Origin: an uncultured Bacteroidales bacterium
Lineage (GTDB): Bacteria; Bacteroidota; Bacteroidia; Bacteroidales; VadinHA17
Assembly (NCBI GenBank): GCA_937871625.1
Contig: CALMRD010000185.1
Span: 1-36,146 of the forward strand
DNA: 36,146 nt
Direction of reading: 5' to 3'
The notes under the pieces were generated by a model. The model did no database searches. It was given only the letters and a program-made list of their open reading frames with translations, and was not told the DNA's origin. Positions 17,140-35,483 of this stretch are shown in pieces. The translations under genes were made by a program, and so were the position numbers. Positions within the stretch are counted from its first letter, which is position 1. Each line of letters begins with the position of its first letter.

Positions 17140-18915
17140 TCATACACTCCTGATCCAGTTGACAAGGCCTTTCTTCTCGATTATCTGCTTCAGCTCGGGA
17201 GGTAGCGGTTCAAACCTGAATTCCCTGTCTCCAATATTCATTTTGCCGCTGTCAAAGTCAATTTCAACAGTGTCTCCCGGTTTGTAGGCCTCAACAGCCT
17301 CACGGTGTACTATCAGCGGAAGCCCCTGGTTGATTGATGAGCGATAGAAAATGCGGTTCACTGACTTGATAATGACAGCCCTGATGCCCAGGTGAGCCAG
17401 TCCGACCGAGGGGTGCTCACGTGAGCTGCCGCAGCCGAAGTTGTCGCCCGCGATGATAATATCACCGGCCCGGGCATTCTTGCTGAACGAGGGGTCGAAG
17501 TCGCCGAACAGCAGAGGCATTATTCCATCCGCATCAGAGCTCATGACACTGTAGGTATGCTTGCCGGCAAACATCTGGTCGGTGTTGAGGTTGTCAACAT
17601 CAGAATAGTCCCATACATTGCCCTCTCTTCTGTTTTCACCCCCGCTGATTGTGTTGGTCTTGCTTTGTGGCGGATTAAAGGGGAATATCTCCTCTCCTCC
17701 TTTTGATCTCGGGTCACTGATGACACCGGTCAGGGCTGAGGCAGCCACTGTTGCCGGTGATGCCAGATATATTGAGGCCTCCTTGTTGCCCATCCTTCCC
17801 AGGAAATTGCGGTTGGCAGTGGAGATGACCGTATGGCCACTGGCAGGTATGCCTTGCCCGGTGCCGAGGCACGGTCCGCATGAGGGAGTGAGAATATTTG
17901 CACCTGCCTCAATGAGGTCAGTGATGATTCCTTCCCTTATGGCCTCGAGGTAGATATCCTTTGAAGCGGGGATGATGTGCAACTGGAACCCCGGCTTAAT
18001 CCTTCCTCCCCTGAGGATACCGGCAGCGATGCGCAGATCCTCTATCCTTCCGTTGGTGCAGGTACCGATAAGGCCTTCATGTACCACCGTCCCGGCCACG
18101 GAGGCTACCGATTTTATATTGTCAACGTGGTGGGGAGCAGCAACCAGCGGGAATACGCTGGAGAGATCTATTGAGATGCGACAGTTGTATTCGGCATCCT
18201 CATCAGCCCATACACCCTCTGTGTCTGAACCGATGAACTTCTTAAGTACGGCGTCGGCCGGAAAGACGGCATTCTTGGCACCCATTTCGGAGGCCAGGTT
18301 GGCAACCGTCATCCTATCACTTATGCCCAGTGTGGAGACTCCGTCGCCGTGAAACTCAATTGACATGTAGTTGGCTCCGTCAGAGCCAAGCATGCCTATT
18401 ATCCATAGCGACAGGTCTTTTGCACTGACGCCCGGTTTCAGTTTTCCTTTCAGGTCGATCCGTAACGACGGTGGCACAAGAAACCATGTCTCACCCCGTT
18501 TCCAGATACCTGCCGCCTCCGTCCGGTCAATACCGGCAGCCAGGGCGTTGAAGGCACCGGCAGTGCAGGTGTGACTGTCAGAACCGACGATTATCATGCC
18601 GGGCCTGGCGTGATAAGACATCATCTGGTGGCAGATACCCATCCCCGAATCATAAAAGCTGCCGATACCCTGCTCTGCGACAATATCCCGTATGGCCTGG
18701 TACTGCGTTGCCAGCTTGGCATCGGCAGGAGGTGCATTGTGGTCCAAAACTACCAGCATCTGTCGCGGGTCAGCTACCTTCTCCCCTCCCATCTTGCGGA
18801 AGGTCTGATGTATACTTGAAGTATTATCATGGGTAAGCACGATATCTGGCTTTCTGAATACTACGGCTCCCTCCGGCGCACCGAGGATCTTCTCTATAAA
18901 TGTTCGTGGTTTCAT
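17140..18915 (-). CDS. Fused LeuC-LeuD-type aconitase superfamily hydro-lyase (paralog 2)
   Basis: Large-subunit motifs LIGTCTNGRIEDLRIA and LTPSCGPCLGTGQGIP (Fe-S cysteines); C-terminal small-subunit domain LNTDQMFAGKHTY...GDNFGCGSSREHPSVGLAHLGIRAVI. Confidence 0.9.
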   Translation of the reverse strand: MKPRTFIEKILGAPEGAVVFRKPDIVLTHDNTSSIHQTFRKMGGEKVADPRQMLVVLDHNAPPADAKLATQYQAIRDIVAEQGIGSFYDSGMGICHQMMSYHARPGMIIVGSDSHTCTAGAFNALAAGIDRTEAAGIWKRGETWFLVPPSLRIDLKGKLKPGVSAKDLSLWIIGMLGSDGANYMSIEFHGDGVSTLGISDRMTVANLASEMGAKNAVFPADAVLKKFIGSDTEGVWADEDAEYNCRISIDLSSVFPLVAAPHHVDNIKSVASVAGTVVHEGLIGTCTNGRIEDLRIAAGILRGGRIKPGFQLHIIPASKDIYLEAIREGIITDLIEAGANILTPSCGPCLGTGQGIPASGHTVISTANRNFLGRMGNKEASIYLASPATVAASALTGVISDPRSKGGEEIFPFNPPQSKTNTISGGENRREGNVWDYSDVDNLNTDQMFAGKHTYSVMSSDADGIMPLLFGDFDPSFSKNARAGDIIIAGDNFGCGSSREHPSVGLAHLGIRAVIIKSVNRIFYRSSINQGLPLIVHREAVEAYKPGDTVEIDFDSGKMNIGDREFRFEPLPPELKQIIEKKGLVNWIRSV

Positions 18916-19049: not shown

Positions 19050-20867
19050 TTAAAGTTTACCCAACAGACCGCCCCTGACATATATCTCATACTGGGCATC
19101 ATAGAAAGGATTGATGTTGGTTGTCAGTCCGTTCCGCTCATTGATGACATCACCTGTAAGCAGATTCACCGTGATGATGTCATGCTCCCTGAGGTCAATC
19201 TCCTCCAGCGAGATGTATGTCAGAACAGGGAATGCGGCATTGATGGCATTGCGTTCATAAATGGCACCGAAAGAGCGTGCAATAACTGCCTGTGCACCCA
19301 GTGAGACGAAGCAGTCCACCGCCTGCTGGCGTGAGCTTCCGCTGCCGAAGTTCTTGCCGGTGACGATGATGTCACCAGGCTCTGCTCTCTTTGCAAAGTC
19401 CTTGAAGCCTTCCAGGTTGTCAAAGGCATACTGGCCCATCTCACGTATATCAGTAATAGCCAGGTACCGGTTATGGAAGATCATGTCAGTGTCAATATTG
19501 TCACGTTCTATCAGCCACACCCTTCCCCTTATCACTGTAGGTTTGTCTTCTCTCCTTTTACTTTGGCTGGCAGCACCGGGTTCCTTCCTGGAGGCTGTTT
19601 TTGAAAACTTCGCCGGTTGGTCAGGGACAGCATCAGGGGTTGTAATGTATCCCGCCACTGCCGATGCAGCCACCACTGCTGGGGAGGCCAGGAAGACACT
19701 TCCCTGGCCCTGTTTGCCGGGGAAGTTCCTGTTGCCCGTACTGACTGTCATCTCTCCTTTTCCGTTCTGCCCAACCTGTCCGGCCGCACATCCTGCGCAG
19801 CCGGCATTGGAAACCAGTGCTCCCGCCTGCTTGAAGATACTTAACAGACCTTCATCAAGACACTGCTTCCATACAGCATCCGTTGAGGGCACAATCTTCA
19901 GGACAACTCCCGGTGCCACCTTCCTGTTACGGAGCATAGCCGCCGCAATTCTCATATCTTCCATCCGGCCGTTGGTACAACTGCCGATGAAGGCAGAGTC
20001 TATCTTTGTCAGTGGCAACTCTCTTACCGGCACAGCGTCATGAGGCTCGCCCGGACGCGACACCATCGGCACGAATGTGGTCACGTCGATATCAGCAGTG
20101 ACCTCATAACCGGCATCAGCATCAGCATATACCGGTTCAAAGGATGACCTGGCACGTGTACGGCAATAGTTGATTATCTCCTCCGATGGCGGGAACAGGA
20201 TGATTATGGCGCCCATCTCCGTTCCCATTGAGGCAATGGTAATGCGCTCATCAAGGGTCATCGAATCAACAGCCTCGCCGTACAGCTCTATGCTGTATCC
20301 AAGCAGCGTATTGGCGCCGTATATGCCCAGGAGGTTGAGGATGACATCCTTGGCGGTAACATTGTCAGGCAGTTTACCAATCAGGTTAATCCTTGCCGAG
20401 GCCGGCACCTTAAACCATACCTTCCCGCTATTCCATGTGGCTGCGATATCCATGTCTCCCATACCCTGTCCGAAGGCACCCACGGCACCCAGTATGTTTG
20501 CATGAGAGTCGGTGGATACGGCTGTGGCACCCGGCCATACATATCCCTCTTCTATGAGCAGGTGCGTTCCGATACCGGCATCAATATCATACAGAGGAAT
20601 ATCATTATTACGCGCAAATTGCCTGCAGATATGCTGATTGACGGCATATTTCTGGTCTGACCCCGTGGGGTTGCAGTCGAATGTAAAGAGTGTTTTCTCC
20701 GGGTCAGCCACTGTCAGACCATATTCATTGAGATTCTTGACGACGTTGGCACCTCCGAAATCCCTGGCAGCACGCGCATCTATTGTTATGTCTATTATCT
20801 CTCCCGGTTTTACCCTATCATATTTGGAGTGTGATGCAATAATCTTCTCAGTGATGGTCATTCCCAT
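19050..20867 (-). CDS. Fused LeuC-LeuD-type aconitase superfamily hydro-lyase (paralog 1)
   Basis: FIGSCTNGRMEDMRIAAAMLRNRKVAPGV, SNAGCAGCAAGQVGQ, NRNFPGKQGQGSVFLASPAVVAASAVAGYI; C-terminal NIDTDMIFHNRYLAI...GKNFGSGSSRQQAVDCFVSLGAQAVIARSF. Confidence 0.9.
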   Translation of the reverse strand: MGMTITEKIIASHSKYDRVKPGEIIDITIDARAARDFGGANVVKNLNEYGLTVADPEKTLFTFDCNPTGSDQKYAVNQHICRQFARNNDIPLYDIDAGIGTHLLIEEGYVWPGATAVSTDSHANILGAVGAFGQGMGDMDIAATWNSGKVWFKVPASARINLIGKLPDNVTAKDVILNLLGIYGANTLLGYSIELYGEAVDSMTLDERITIASMGTEMGAIIILFPPSEEIINYCRTRARSSFEPVYADADAGYEVTADIDVTTFVPMVSRPGEPHDAVPVRELPLTKIDSAFIGSCTNGRMEDMRIAAAMLRNRKVAPGVVLKIVPSTDAVWKQCLDEGLLSIFKQAGALVSNAGCAGCAAGQVGQNGKGEMTVSTGNRNFPGKQGQGSVFLASPAVVAASAVAGYITTPDAVPDQPAKFSKTASRKEPGAASQSKRREDKPTVIRGRVWLIERDNIDTDMIFHNRYLAITDIREMGQYAFDNLEGFKDFAKRAEPGDIIVTGKNFGSGSSRQQAVDCFVSLGAQAVIARSFGAIYERNAINAAFPVLTYISLEEIDLREHDIITVNLLTGDVINERNGLTTNINPFYDAQYEIYVRGGLLGKL

Positions 20868-20982: not shown

Positions 20983-21831
20983 TCAGCTTCTGTACTGCGC
21001 CCTGTAGTCGCGCGCTGACATGCCTGCATGTTTTCGGAACTGCTTATTGAAGTTTGACACGGTAGCGAAGCCGCATTCAAATACAATCTCGTTTATCTGA
21101 TGATCAGTCTCGCGAAGCAGATAACAGGCCTTGTTTGTACGTACCTGGTTGACATAATCAACGAATCCGCTGCCCGTGCTGCGCGAGAAAAAGCGACTGA
21201 AGGAATGAGGGCTCATCTTTGCTATTGCGGCAACCTCCTTGACAGGTATAGGTCTGAAAAAGTTATCCCTCACAAATGCACAGACGGCAGTGAGCCTGCT
21301 GTCGTTCATATCACGGGTACCGGCGGCAGCATCTCCGGCCAGAAACTTGTACCTCTCAGCCGAGGAGAGGATCTCAAAGAGCCGGAAGAGACTCACCATC
21401 TTCCTCATTCCGGTCTCGGAGAGAAGCCGCCTCATAGGTTCCTCGGCAGCCCTGCCGGTCTCGGCAGGAAAGGATATGCCTCTTCCCGCTTCGTCAAGCA
21501 GACGCCGCAGGTCGGTCATCTCAAACTGTGAAAGAAGAGCCTCTCCCAATGATTCCCTCCTGAAGTGACACATAATGGCATGCTTCTCCCTCTCATCCCC
21601 TCCGTTGCTGTAGAAATTCCAGAAGTGACGGAGGTCAGGACCGTAGATGACCAGGTCATAATGATCAAAAATCTCCACGGAGTCTCCGGCAACACGGGTG
21701 CCGTTTCCGGTGATATTTAAAACTATCTCATACTCGGGGTGAACATGCAGAAAACTGCTCTCATGGTCAATCCACTCGGCCCTGAAGCCTGAGCCGTCAT
21801 CGTGCCTGATGGTAATAATTTCAGGTATCAT
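20983..21831 (-). CDS. AraC family transcriptional regulator
   Basis: N-terminal cupin-like HVHPEYEIVLNITGNGTRVAGDS; C-terminal double HTH KEVAAIAKMSPHSFSRFFSRSTGSGFVDYVNQVRTNKACYLLRETDHQINEIVFECGFATVSNFNKQFRKHAGMSARDYR. Confidence 0.95.
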   Translation of the reverse strand: MIPEIITIRHDDGSGFRAEWIDHESSFLHVHPEYEIVLNITGNGTRVAGDSVEIFDHYDLVIYGPDLRHFWNFYSNGGDEREKHAIMCHFRRESLGEALLSQFEMTDLRRLLDEAGRGISFPAETGRAAEEPMRRLLSETGMRKMVSLFRLFEILSSAERYKFLAGDAAAGTRDMNDSRLTAVCAFVRDNFFRPIPVKEVAAIAKMSPHSFSRFFSRSTGSGFVDYVNQVRTNKACYLLRETDHQINEIVFECGFATVSNFNKQFRKHAGMSARDYRAQYRS

Positions 21832-21949: not shown

Positions 21950-21981
21950 TTTGCATTGTGAAAAATAATATGTTATATTTG
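21950..21981 (+). promoter_or_regulatory. Bacteroidetes sigma-ABfr-type promoter (TTTG-N20-TATATTTG)
   Basis: -33 TTTG at 21950-21953 and -7 TATATTTG at 21974-21981; drives the structured RNA region. Confidence 0.75.
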
Positions 21982-21987
21982 TCAAAA

Positions 21988-22182
21988 GCTAATGCTTTAA
22001 AATAAAAAGAGGAGAGTAAGGGTTACCTGTGGGAATCAATAGGATTGTATTGCAGACATTGACTTTCACATGGACCTATAGGCTGACTACCATAGGTTAC
22101 TTCCTTTTATCAGACAGTAGATTCCGGGATTATCTCATAAGCCCGTTCCTTAAAGTACCACGGTAACCCTCTCCTCTTTTTT
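21988..22182 (+). ncRNA. Candidate structured RNA (6S-like RNA or long structured leader), ~190 nt
   Basis: Long-range closing helix: 22004-22015/22170-22181 (12 bp), 22020-22027/22162-22169 (8 bp), 22029-22032/22158-22161 (4 bp), 22033-22037/22120-22124 (5 bp). Internal hairpins at 22125-22145 and 22074-22097. U-rich 3' end TTTTTTCTTTT. Preceded by a near-consensus promoter. Confidence 0.7.
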
Positions 22183-22197
22183 CTTTTGCACCTGCCA

Positions 22198-22899
22198 ATG
22201 AAAACTTTCCTGAAAAGATTTGAGAATAACAGGGACCTGGTGATTCTCTTCGGGACGTGGGGTATAGATGAAAAAGCTTTCTCAAATCTTTGTACCGACA
22301 GGTTTGATTTCATACTCTTCTACAACTATTCAGCCGACGAGCCGCTTATTCTTCCCGAGATGAAAACCTACCGCAGGGTGACTGTCATAGGTTGGTCGCT
22401 CGGTGTCTGGGCAGCTGAGTACTACAGCCGTAAGATGGGAATCAGGCCTGACCTGACAATTGCAATCAACGGCACCCCTGTGGCCGCCGATGACAAGTAC
22501 GGCATCCCTCTCAGGATATTCGAAGCAACACTGGAGAACATATCGAATTACAGCATGGGCAAGTTCTATCTAAGGCTCTTTGGCACAAGAAGCCGTTTTG
22601 AGATGAACAGGCAAAATATCCCTTCCCGCTCTGAGAAGTCGCTCCATGATGAGCTCAGGTGGCTATACAACAGGATGATGGAACCGGTGGAGACAGGGTT
22701 TCTCTGGGACTATTCACTAATTGGATCTGAAGACAGGGTCTTCAGGGCGTCAAACCTTAAAAGCTACTGGTCCATGCACCCCGAAACAAGGCAGATCATA
22801 GTTGATGCACCTCATTATCTCTTTGACAACTGGAACTCACTGGAAGAGCTGATTCGGTATGTAAGGCGTTTCCGCCTCTCTCCCTTTCGCAACAGGTGA
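22198..22899 (+). CDS. BioG/DUF452-like pimeloyl-ACP methyl ester esterase family protein
   Basis: VILFGTWGIDEKAFSNL...FILFYNYSAD...VTVIGWSLGVWAAEYY (GWSLG nucleophile elbow)...INGTPVAADDKYGIP...VDAPHYLFDNW. Confidence 0.8.
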   Translation: MKTFLKRFENNRDLVILFGTWGIDEKAFSNLCTDRFDFILFYNYSADEPLILPEMKTYRRVTVIGWSLGVWAAEYYSRKMGIRPDLTIAINGTPVAADDKYGIPLRIFEATLENISNYSMGKFYLRLFGTRSRFEMNRQNIPSRSEKSLHDELRWLYNRMMEPVETGFLWDYSLIGSEDRVFRASNLKSYWSMHPETRQIIVDAPHYLFDNWNSLEELIRYVRRFRLSPFRNR

Positions 22900-35193: not shown

Positions 35194-35228
35194 AACTTTT
35201 ATTCCCGAAAGCTCCCTGTTACAGGACA

Positions 35229-35416
35229 CGTTCTGGCAGGTCTTCTGACTCATCCCTACTCACCGGGCCTTCCCGTCCGCCAGCTGGCAGACAGTGGCGG
35301 GAAATCCGGCTGTAATGATCCGCAAACGGCGGAACGGGCTTCACAGCAGCGGGTACTGTCCCTGGTTCAAACAGGGTTCCCTTTTCACTGCCGGAAAAAA
35401 CCGGCAGCACCAGAAT
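35229..35416 (-). promoter_or_regulatory. Cobalamin riboswitch
   Basis: Minus strand contains AAAAGGGAA, CGCTGCTGTGAAGCCC, CGCCACTGT, GGGAAGGCCCGGTGAGTAGGGATGAGTCAGAAGACCTGCC (B12 box), with P1 pairing TTCTGG/CCAGAA. Confidence 0.95.
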
Positions 35417-35420
35417 GATA

Positions 35421-35428
35421 CAAAGGTA
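35421..35428 (-). promoter_or_regulatory. Bacteroidetes -7 element (TACCTTTG) for the cobalamin riboswitch/operon
   Basis: TAnnTTTG match 5 bp upstream of riboswitch P1. Confidence 0.65.
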
Positions 35429-35483
35429 ATGAATTACCTGATCGGTTACCGAAGATAATTATCAACAAACAGTATAAGAGTGT

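Follow-up and report, generated by a model that had tools for sequence, protein, structure and literature searches.

A lineage-restricted structured RNA gene next to bioG in Bacteroidales, probably stand-alone and trans-acting

The 36,146-nt stretch of DNA analysed here (the window; contig CALMRD010000185.1 of an uncultured Bacteroidales bacterium) carries a structured RNA directly upstream of bioG, and we conclude that it is a real, hitherto undescribed and lineage-restricted RNA gene, probably stand-alone and acting in trans. It has its own promoter and terminator signals, a fold supported by covariation, and two central segments that are identical in every homologue compared.

Results

A conserved RNA with its own promoter and terminator signals

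A sequence-only reading had proposed a promoter-driven structured RNA of ~190 nt at this place, and the promoter, the conservation and the covariation described below bear this out; the promoter, the U-run and the distance to bioG lie, on direct reading, where they had been put (Table 1). The transcript probably starts ~10-20 nt before position 22004. The minimum free energy fold of the region reaches -58.8 kcal/mol (z -3.0 against dinucleotide shuffles). Of 69 homologous loci, 64 have TAnnTTTG on the 5' side of the RNA, with 10.3 expected from shuffles.

Table 1. Features of the RNA gene and its neighbours in the window
Feature	Position	Strand	Basis or remark
RNA promoter: TTTG 21950-21953, 20-nt spacer, TATATTTG 21974-21981	21950..21981	+	Bacteroidetes -33/-7 type; direct reading
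Structured RNA, conserved body	22004..22182	+	Covariance models R1/R3, 71 homologues
P1 5' strand AAAAAGAGGAGA	22004..22015	+	Closing helix; doubles as 5' half of terminator-like hairpin
P2 5' strand: GGGTTACC 22020-22027 and GTGG 22029-22032	22020..22032	+	Covariation
P3 (alternative helix) 5' strand GTGGGAATCAA	22029..22039	+	Partner 22059-22069; overlaps P2
Invariant 30-nt segment AGGATTGTATTGCAGACATTGACTTTCACA	22041..22070	+	Same in all 72 sequences compared
Apical hairpin	22074..22097	+	Main helix: double changes at 7/7 modelled pairs
Invariant segment TTATCAGACAGTAGA	22107..22121	+	Same in all 72 sequences
Hairpin, 3' side of bubble	22125..22145	+	Double changes at 4/8 pairs
P2 3' strand: CCAC 22158-22161 and GGTAACCC 22162-22169	22158..22169	+	Covariation
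P1 3' strand TCTCCTCTTTTT (22170-22181) and U-run	22170..22182	+	Intrinsic-terminator-like end; direct reading and covariation
bioG, pimeloyl-ACP methyl ester esterase, next gene downstream	22198..22899	+	Pfam PF04301, E=1.1e-31
AraC-type regulator, divergent neighbour in most loci	20983..21831	-	PF12833

No Rfam 15 family matches the RNA: above the gathering threshold a scan of the window returned a cobalamin riboswitch and tRNA alone, and at E<=5 the RNA region drew only chance scores. The statement that it is no standard riboswitch class thus stands, the Rfam riboswitch models giving no match to it. The sole riboswitch of the window is the cobalamin element (RF00174, 91.5 bits), which occupies 35218-35429 on the minus strand. 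The core sequence of the RNA does not occur in the literature searched.

Covariation and competing helices

Among 61 distinct sequences, compensatory changes occur in 34 of the 38 base pairs, a count reached by none of 500 shuffles, and 87% of the pair cells are standard; the covariation score is 0.300 vs 0.132 for shuffled and <=0.131 for slid controls. An earlier alignment of 20 sequences had given 23 of 38. Fitting the alignment to the structure biases these counts, but the changes in P1 (double changes at 10 of 10 modelled pairs) and P2 (12 of 12) can be verified by eye. The closing helix (P1 and P2), the apical hairpin and the 3' hairpin, all proposed from the single sequence, are found at their proposed positions and backed by covariation. 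The exception is the GAATC/GATTC helix (22033-22037 / 22120-22124), which has to be given up: GACAC takes the place of GATTC in many relatives, and the GAATC strand has alternative partners in the P2 3' strand or in UUGACUUUCAC.

The latter pairing belongs to P3 (GUGAAAAUCAA with UUGACUUUCAC), which keeps at least 9 of its 11 pairs in 62 of 72 sequences, a level reached by 0.2% of background windows; its 3' side is invariant, so that no covariation test is possible for it. P3 shares bases with a P2 extension, a pairing that the window's genus has lost but that other genera hold strongly. P3 and this extension cannot form together, and each of them is widely kept.

The strongest feature is one that a single sequence could not reveal: AGGAUUGUAUUGCAGACAUUGACUUUCACA (30 nt) and UUAUCAGACAGUAGA (15 nt) do not vary at all among the 72 sequences, the window's being one of them; the pattern used for the scan predefines 13 and 10 bases of the two, the remainder being independent. 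A peptide-coding reading was rejected, since 30 bases in a row are invariant even at third positions and the helices covary.

Distribution

The RNA is single-copy in the window's genome and is found in 20 of 21 other genomes of the same genus, mostly at 95-99% identity with diverging upstream sequence; the copy in G008, a member of that genus, is 87% identical. Model R1 picked it up in further genera of the family, but among 393 genomes drawn from across the order only three, all family members, gave a match. With model R3 it was recovered from 63 of 98 family genomes, in 6 of 15 genera; 40 genomes from other families yielded no copy (best E 0.48). When the species genomes of GTDB were scanned with an exact pattern, 72 loci came up. 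Of these, 71 are genuine, and every one of the 71 carries a Bacteroidota/Bacteroidales MAG title, with Rikenella as the label in one case; the match in Nonlabens (L113) is due to chance. Across the genomes searched, then, the RNA does not go beyond a single family of Bacteroidales. A 23-mer of the RNA is absent from viral contigs; two 19-mer matches there consist of one shared identical stretch with the rest of the RNA missing, and look like chance. The RNA was not found in plasmids. In one MAG (G490, AA_UR_SE bin3) the RNA and bioG each occur in two copies (L108 and L137); the contigs are named 'pangenome', and the two copies may represent a mixture of strains or species.

Indirect evidence of transcription

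BK014122.1 is an activated-sludge record of an ssRNA phage. Over its first 135 nt it matches the L137 RNA at 100% identity, after which, still upstream of the maturation gene, it switches abruptly to other sequence. The record begins 11 nt past the -7 box of the L137 RNA promoter. An ssRNA phage passes through no DNA stage, so this sequence was read from RNA. Most simply, the start of the record would be an assembly chimera with an abundant host RNA, and as such it is evidence that the RNA is transcribed, if only indirectly; instead of a metatranscriptome chimera, template switching or true recombination may have produced it. A genuine copy of the motif in an ssRNA phage was considered and rejected, the 30-nt match lying inside the 135-nt identical stretch, for which the chimera is the simplest account. 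The 5' end of this phage genome (SRR5467091_15; L228 1-135) is probably chimeric and therefore unreliable.

Relationship with bioG

Where the DNA reaches far enough (65 loci), bioG is the next same-strand gene in 63, and the RNA and bioG occur in the same six genera. This adjacency is partly block synteny, because most loci also keep the AraC-type gene on the upstream side and, beyond bioG, a YihY-type gene. Many related loci also keep, beside the AraC-RNA-bioG block, the two tandem aconitase-family-like genes found in the window at 17140-18915 and 19050-20867 on the minus strand.

Such linkage would be expected of a cis-acting leader, in which P1/P2 terminates transcription and P3 weakens this terminator in response to a metabolite or a protein, and the mutual exclusion of P3 and the P2 extension fits this picture, as does the riboswitch-like look of the conserved junction sequences. 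The gap between RNA and bioG is only 12-16 nt in the window's genus and in L129. In that genus it leaves no room for a bioG promoter, and the sequence-only reading had seen no separate one in the window; read-through into bioG is likely, and bioG probably relies on it both there and in L129. However, this does not extend to most of the family. In 46 loci a long gap separates the RNA terminator from bioG, and 38 of these have a TAnnTTTR box, mostly TATCTTTG/A, 35-90 nt before the bioG ATG (4.6 expected, maximum 10 in 200 shuffles). With a box of its own after the RNA terminator, bioG probably forms a unit separate from the RNA in most of the family. Moreover, P1 serves as closing helix and terminator simultaneously, and none of the known riboswitch classes in Rfam is matched. 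Finally, G008 keeps the RNA and its promoter (L148) despite having lost bioG: no bioG lies between the RNA and the YihY gene, nor anywhere else in this 94% complete genome; this is the single clean case. In L112 the RNA adjoins another gene and bioG sits on a separate contig, but that contig ends ~230 nt upstream of bioG, so this second case is weak. A leader may still operate in the window's genus, but the promoters of most other genera speak against it; as an account of the RNA as a whole we consider it unlikely.

Nor does the RNA seem to reach bioG by base pairing: no complementarity to the bioG start region was found (mean z +0.9, weaker than shuffled). A regulatory small RNA using the invariant segments as putative seeds against mRNAs would agree with the promoter, the terminator and the presence of two such segments, yet 30 consecutive invariant bases exceed what a seed requires, and with bioG not being complementary we regard this reading as quite improbable.

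6S RNA and Bacteroidales-1

The 6S likeness put forward from the sequence alone does not hold as family membership. RF00013 and RF01685 have no match in the window's whole genome at E<=10, nor do 6S models match the RNA region at E<=5. Model R2, whose source sequences were of Bacteroidales-1 type and came from the family and the order, has one match in this genome, on another contig (G000:C397:9786-9985, L187; E=7.7e-23), which the Rfam models missed; it finds one copy each in 39 of 40 relatives and does not match the bioG-side RNA. The 6S slot of the genome is therefore probably already filled. At all the 6S-Flavo and Bacteroidales-1 loci tested, the same model gives a match in the same position, and RF01693 (Bacteroidales-1), strong in parts of the order, shares the AAACUCAACA motif with the 6S-Flavo matches. 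From these cross-matches we infer that Bacteroidales-1 is the 6S RNA. A 6S RNA with pRNAs has been reported in B. thetaiotaomicron (PMC7366714).

Bacteroidales-1 and 6S-Flavo (RF01685) resemble the bioG-side RNA in occurring in Bacteroidetes and in their rod, closing helix, U-run and 3'-side hairpin, and Bacteroidales-1 also in length; they differ from it in the AAACUCAACA motif, in their presence across the order and in the lack of any cross-match. As a homologue, Bacteroidales-1 was rejected: it is a different RNA that coexists in the same genome. With 6S RNA proper (RF00013) the likeness is one of general rod-and-bubble outline: the closing stem and the 3'-side hairpin are present, whereas the apical arm is a 24-nt hairpin that becomes longer only with non-covarying pairs. 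Some bacteria have two 6S RNAs, and a second, predicted RNA polymerase-binding paralogue would suit the rod with its closing helix, the internal bubble with a 3'-side hairpin and the ~180 nt, but the silent models, the short apical arm, the long invariant bubble strands and the restriction to one family make any 6S identity very improbable.

The 30-nt motif in a second scaffold

Model R3 also matches elements of 70-107 nt in G496, G500, G513, G517 and G520 and in the same-genus G008. These have GC-rich closing stems and a T-run (AAGGCGACACU...AGUGUCGCCUUUU and others) around the 30-nt motif, so that the motif, occasionally with a few changes, sits in short terminator-like hairpins whose stems are unrelated. 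They are dispersed and their neighbours vary; an integron array was considered and rejected, no repeat array being found. They include L168 958-1040(-), L217, L218, L219, L220, L221, L222 and L223, and behind several of them comes another conserved hairpin (GAGGCGGUACUUC...GCAGCGAGAC...GUACCGC).

Discussion

We favour, with fair but not strong confidence, the view that this is a new autonomous non-coding RNA gene that acts in trans. The RNA very probably has a job of its own and is probably more than a leader of bioG. On this model it would be transcribed from its own housekeeping-type promoter and would fold into the long closing helix (P1/P2), the 3' half of which, with the U-run, would stop transcription. 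The central junction would present the two invariant segments, with the apical and the 3'-side hairpins flanking them, and the segments would most likely bind a conserved putative partner in trans, either an RNA-binding protein or another RNA. The data directly show the structure, the invariance, the promoter and terminator signals, the distribution and, in most genera, a bioG promoter apart from that of the RNA; they show transcription indirectly, and we infer both the action in trans and the existence of the partner. Within the genus of the window, RNA and bioG seem to have merged into one unit, bioG probably being expressed there through read-through.

Lineage-restricted stand-alone structured RNAs whose function is not known include OLE and the raiA RNA. 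Like them, the bioG-side RNA is a highly conserved non-coding gene in synteny with one gene, although the Rfam scan shows no sequence relation. The single model that matches both Bacteroidales-1 and 6S-Flavo suggests in turn that these two Rfam families may belong together, probably as one 6S-type family.

The dispersed hairpins lead to a further and tentative idea, to which we give a low probability: the 30-nt segment could be the recognition module of a conserved putative RNA-binding protein, with the bioG-side RNA and the short hairpins as its two scaffolds in an RNA-based regulatory network of Bacteroidales. The second scaffold makes this idea directly testable, and the two invariant segments can be used as bait for capturing the partner.

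Taken together, these findings add a structured RNA family that is new to Rfam 15, from bacteria known only from metagenomes, and its conservation is of a level normally confined to housekeeping RNAs. If the idea of a shared protein is true, it would reveal a new RNA-based regulatory network.
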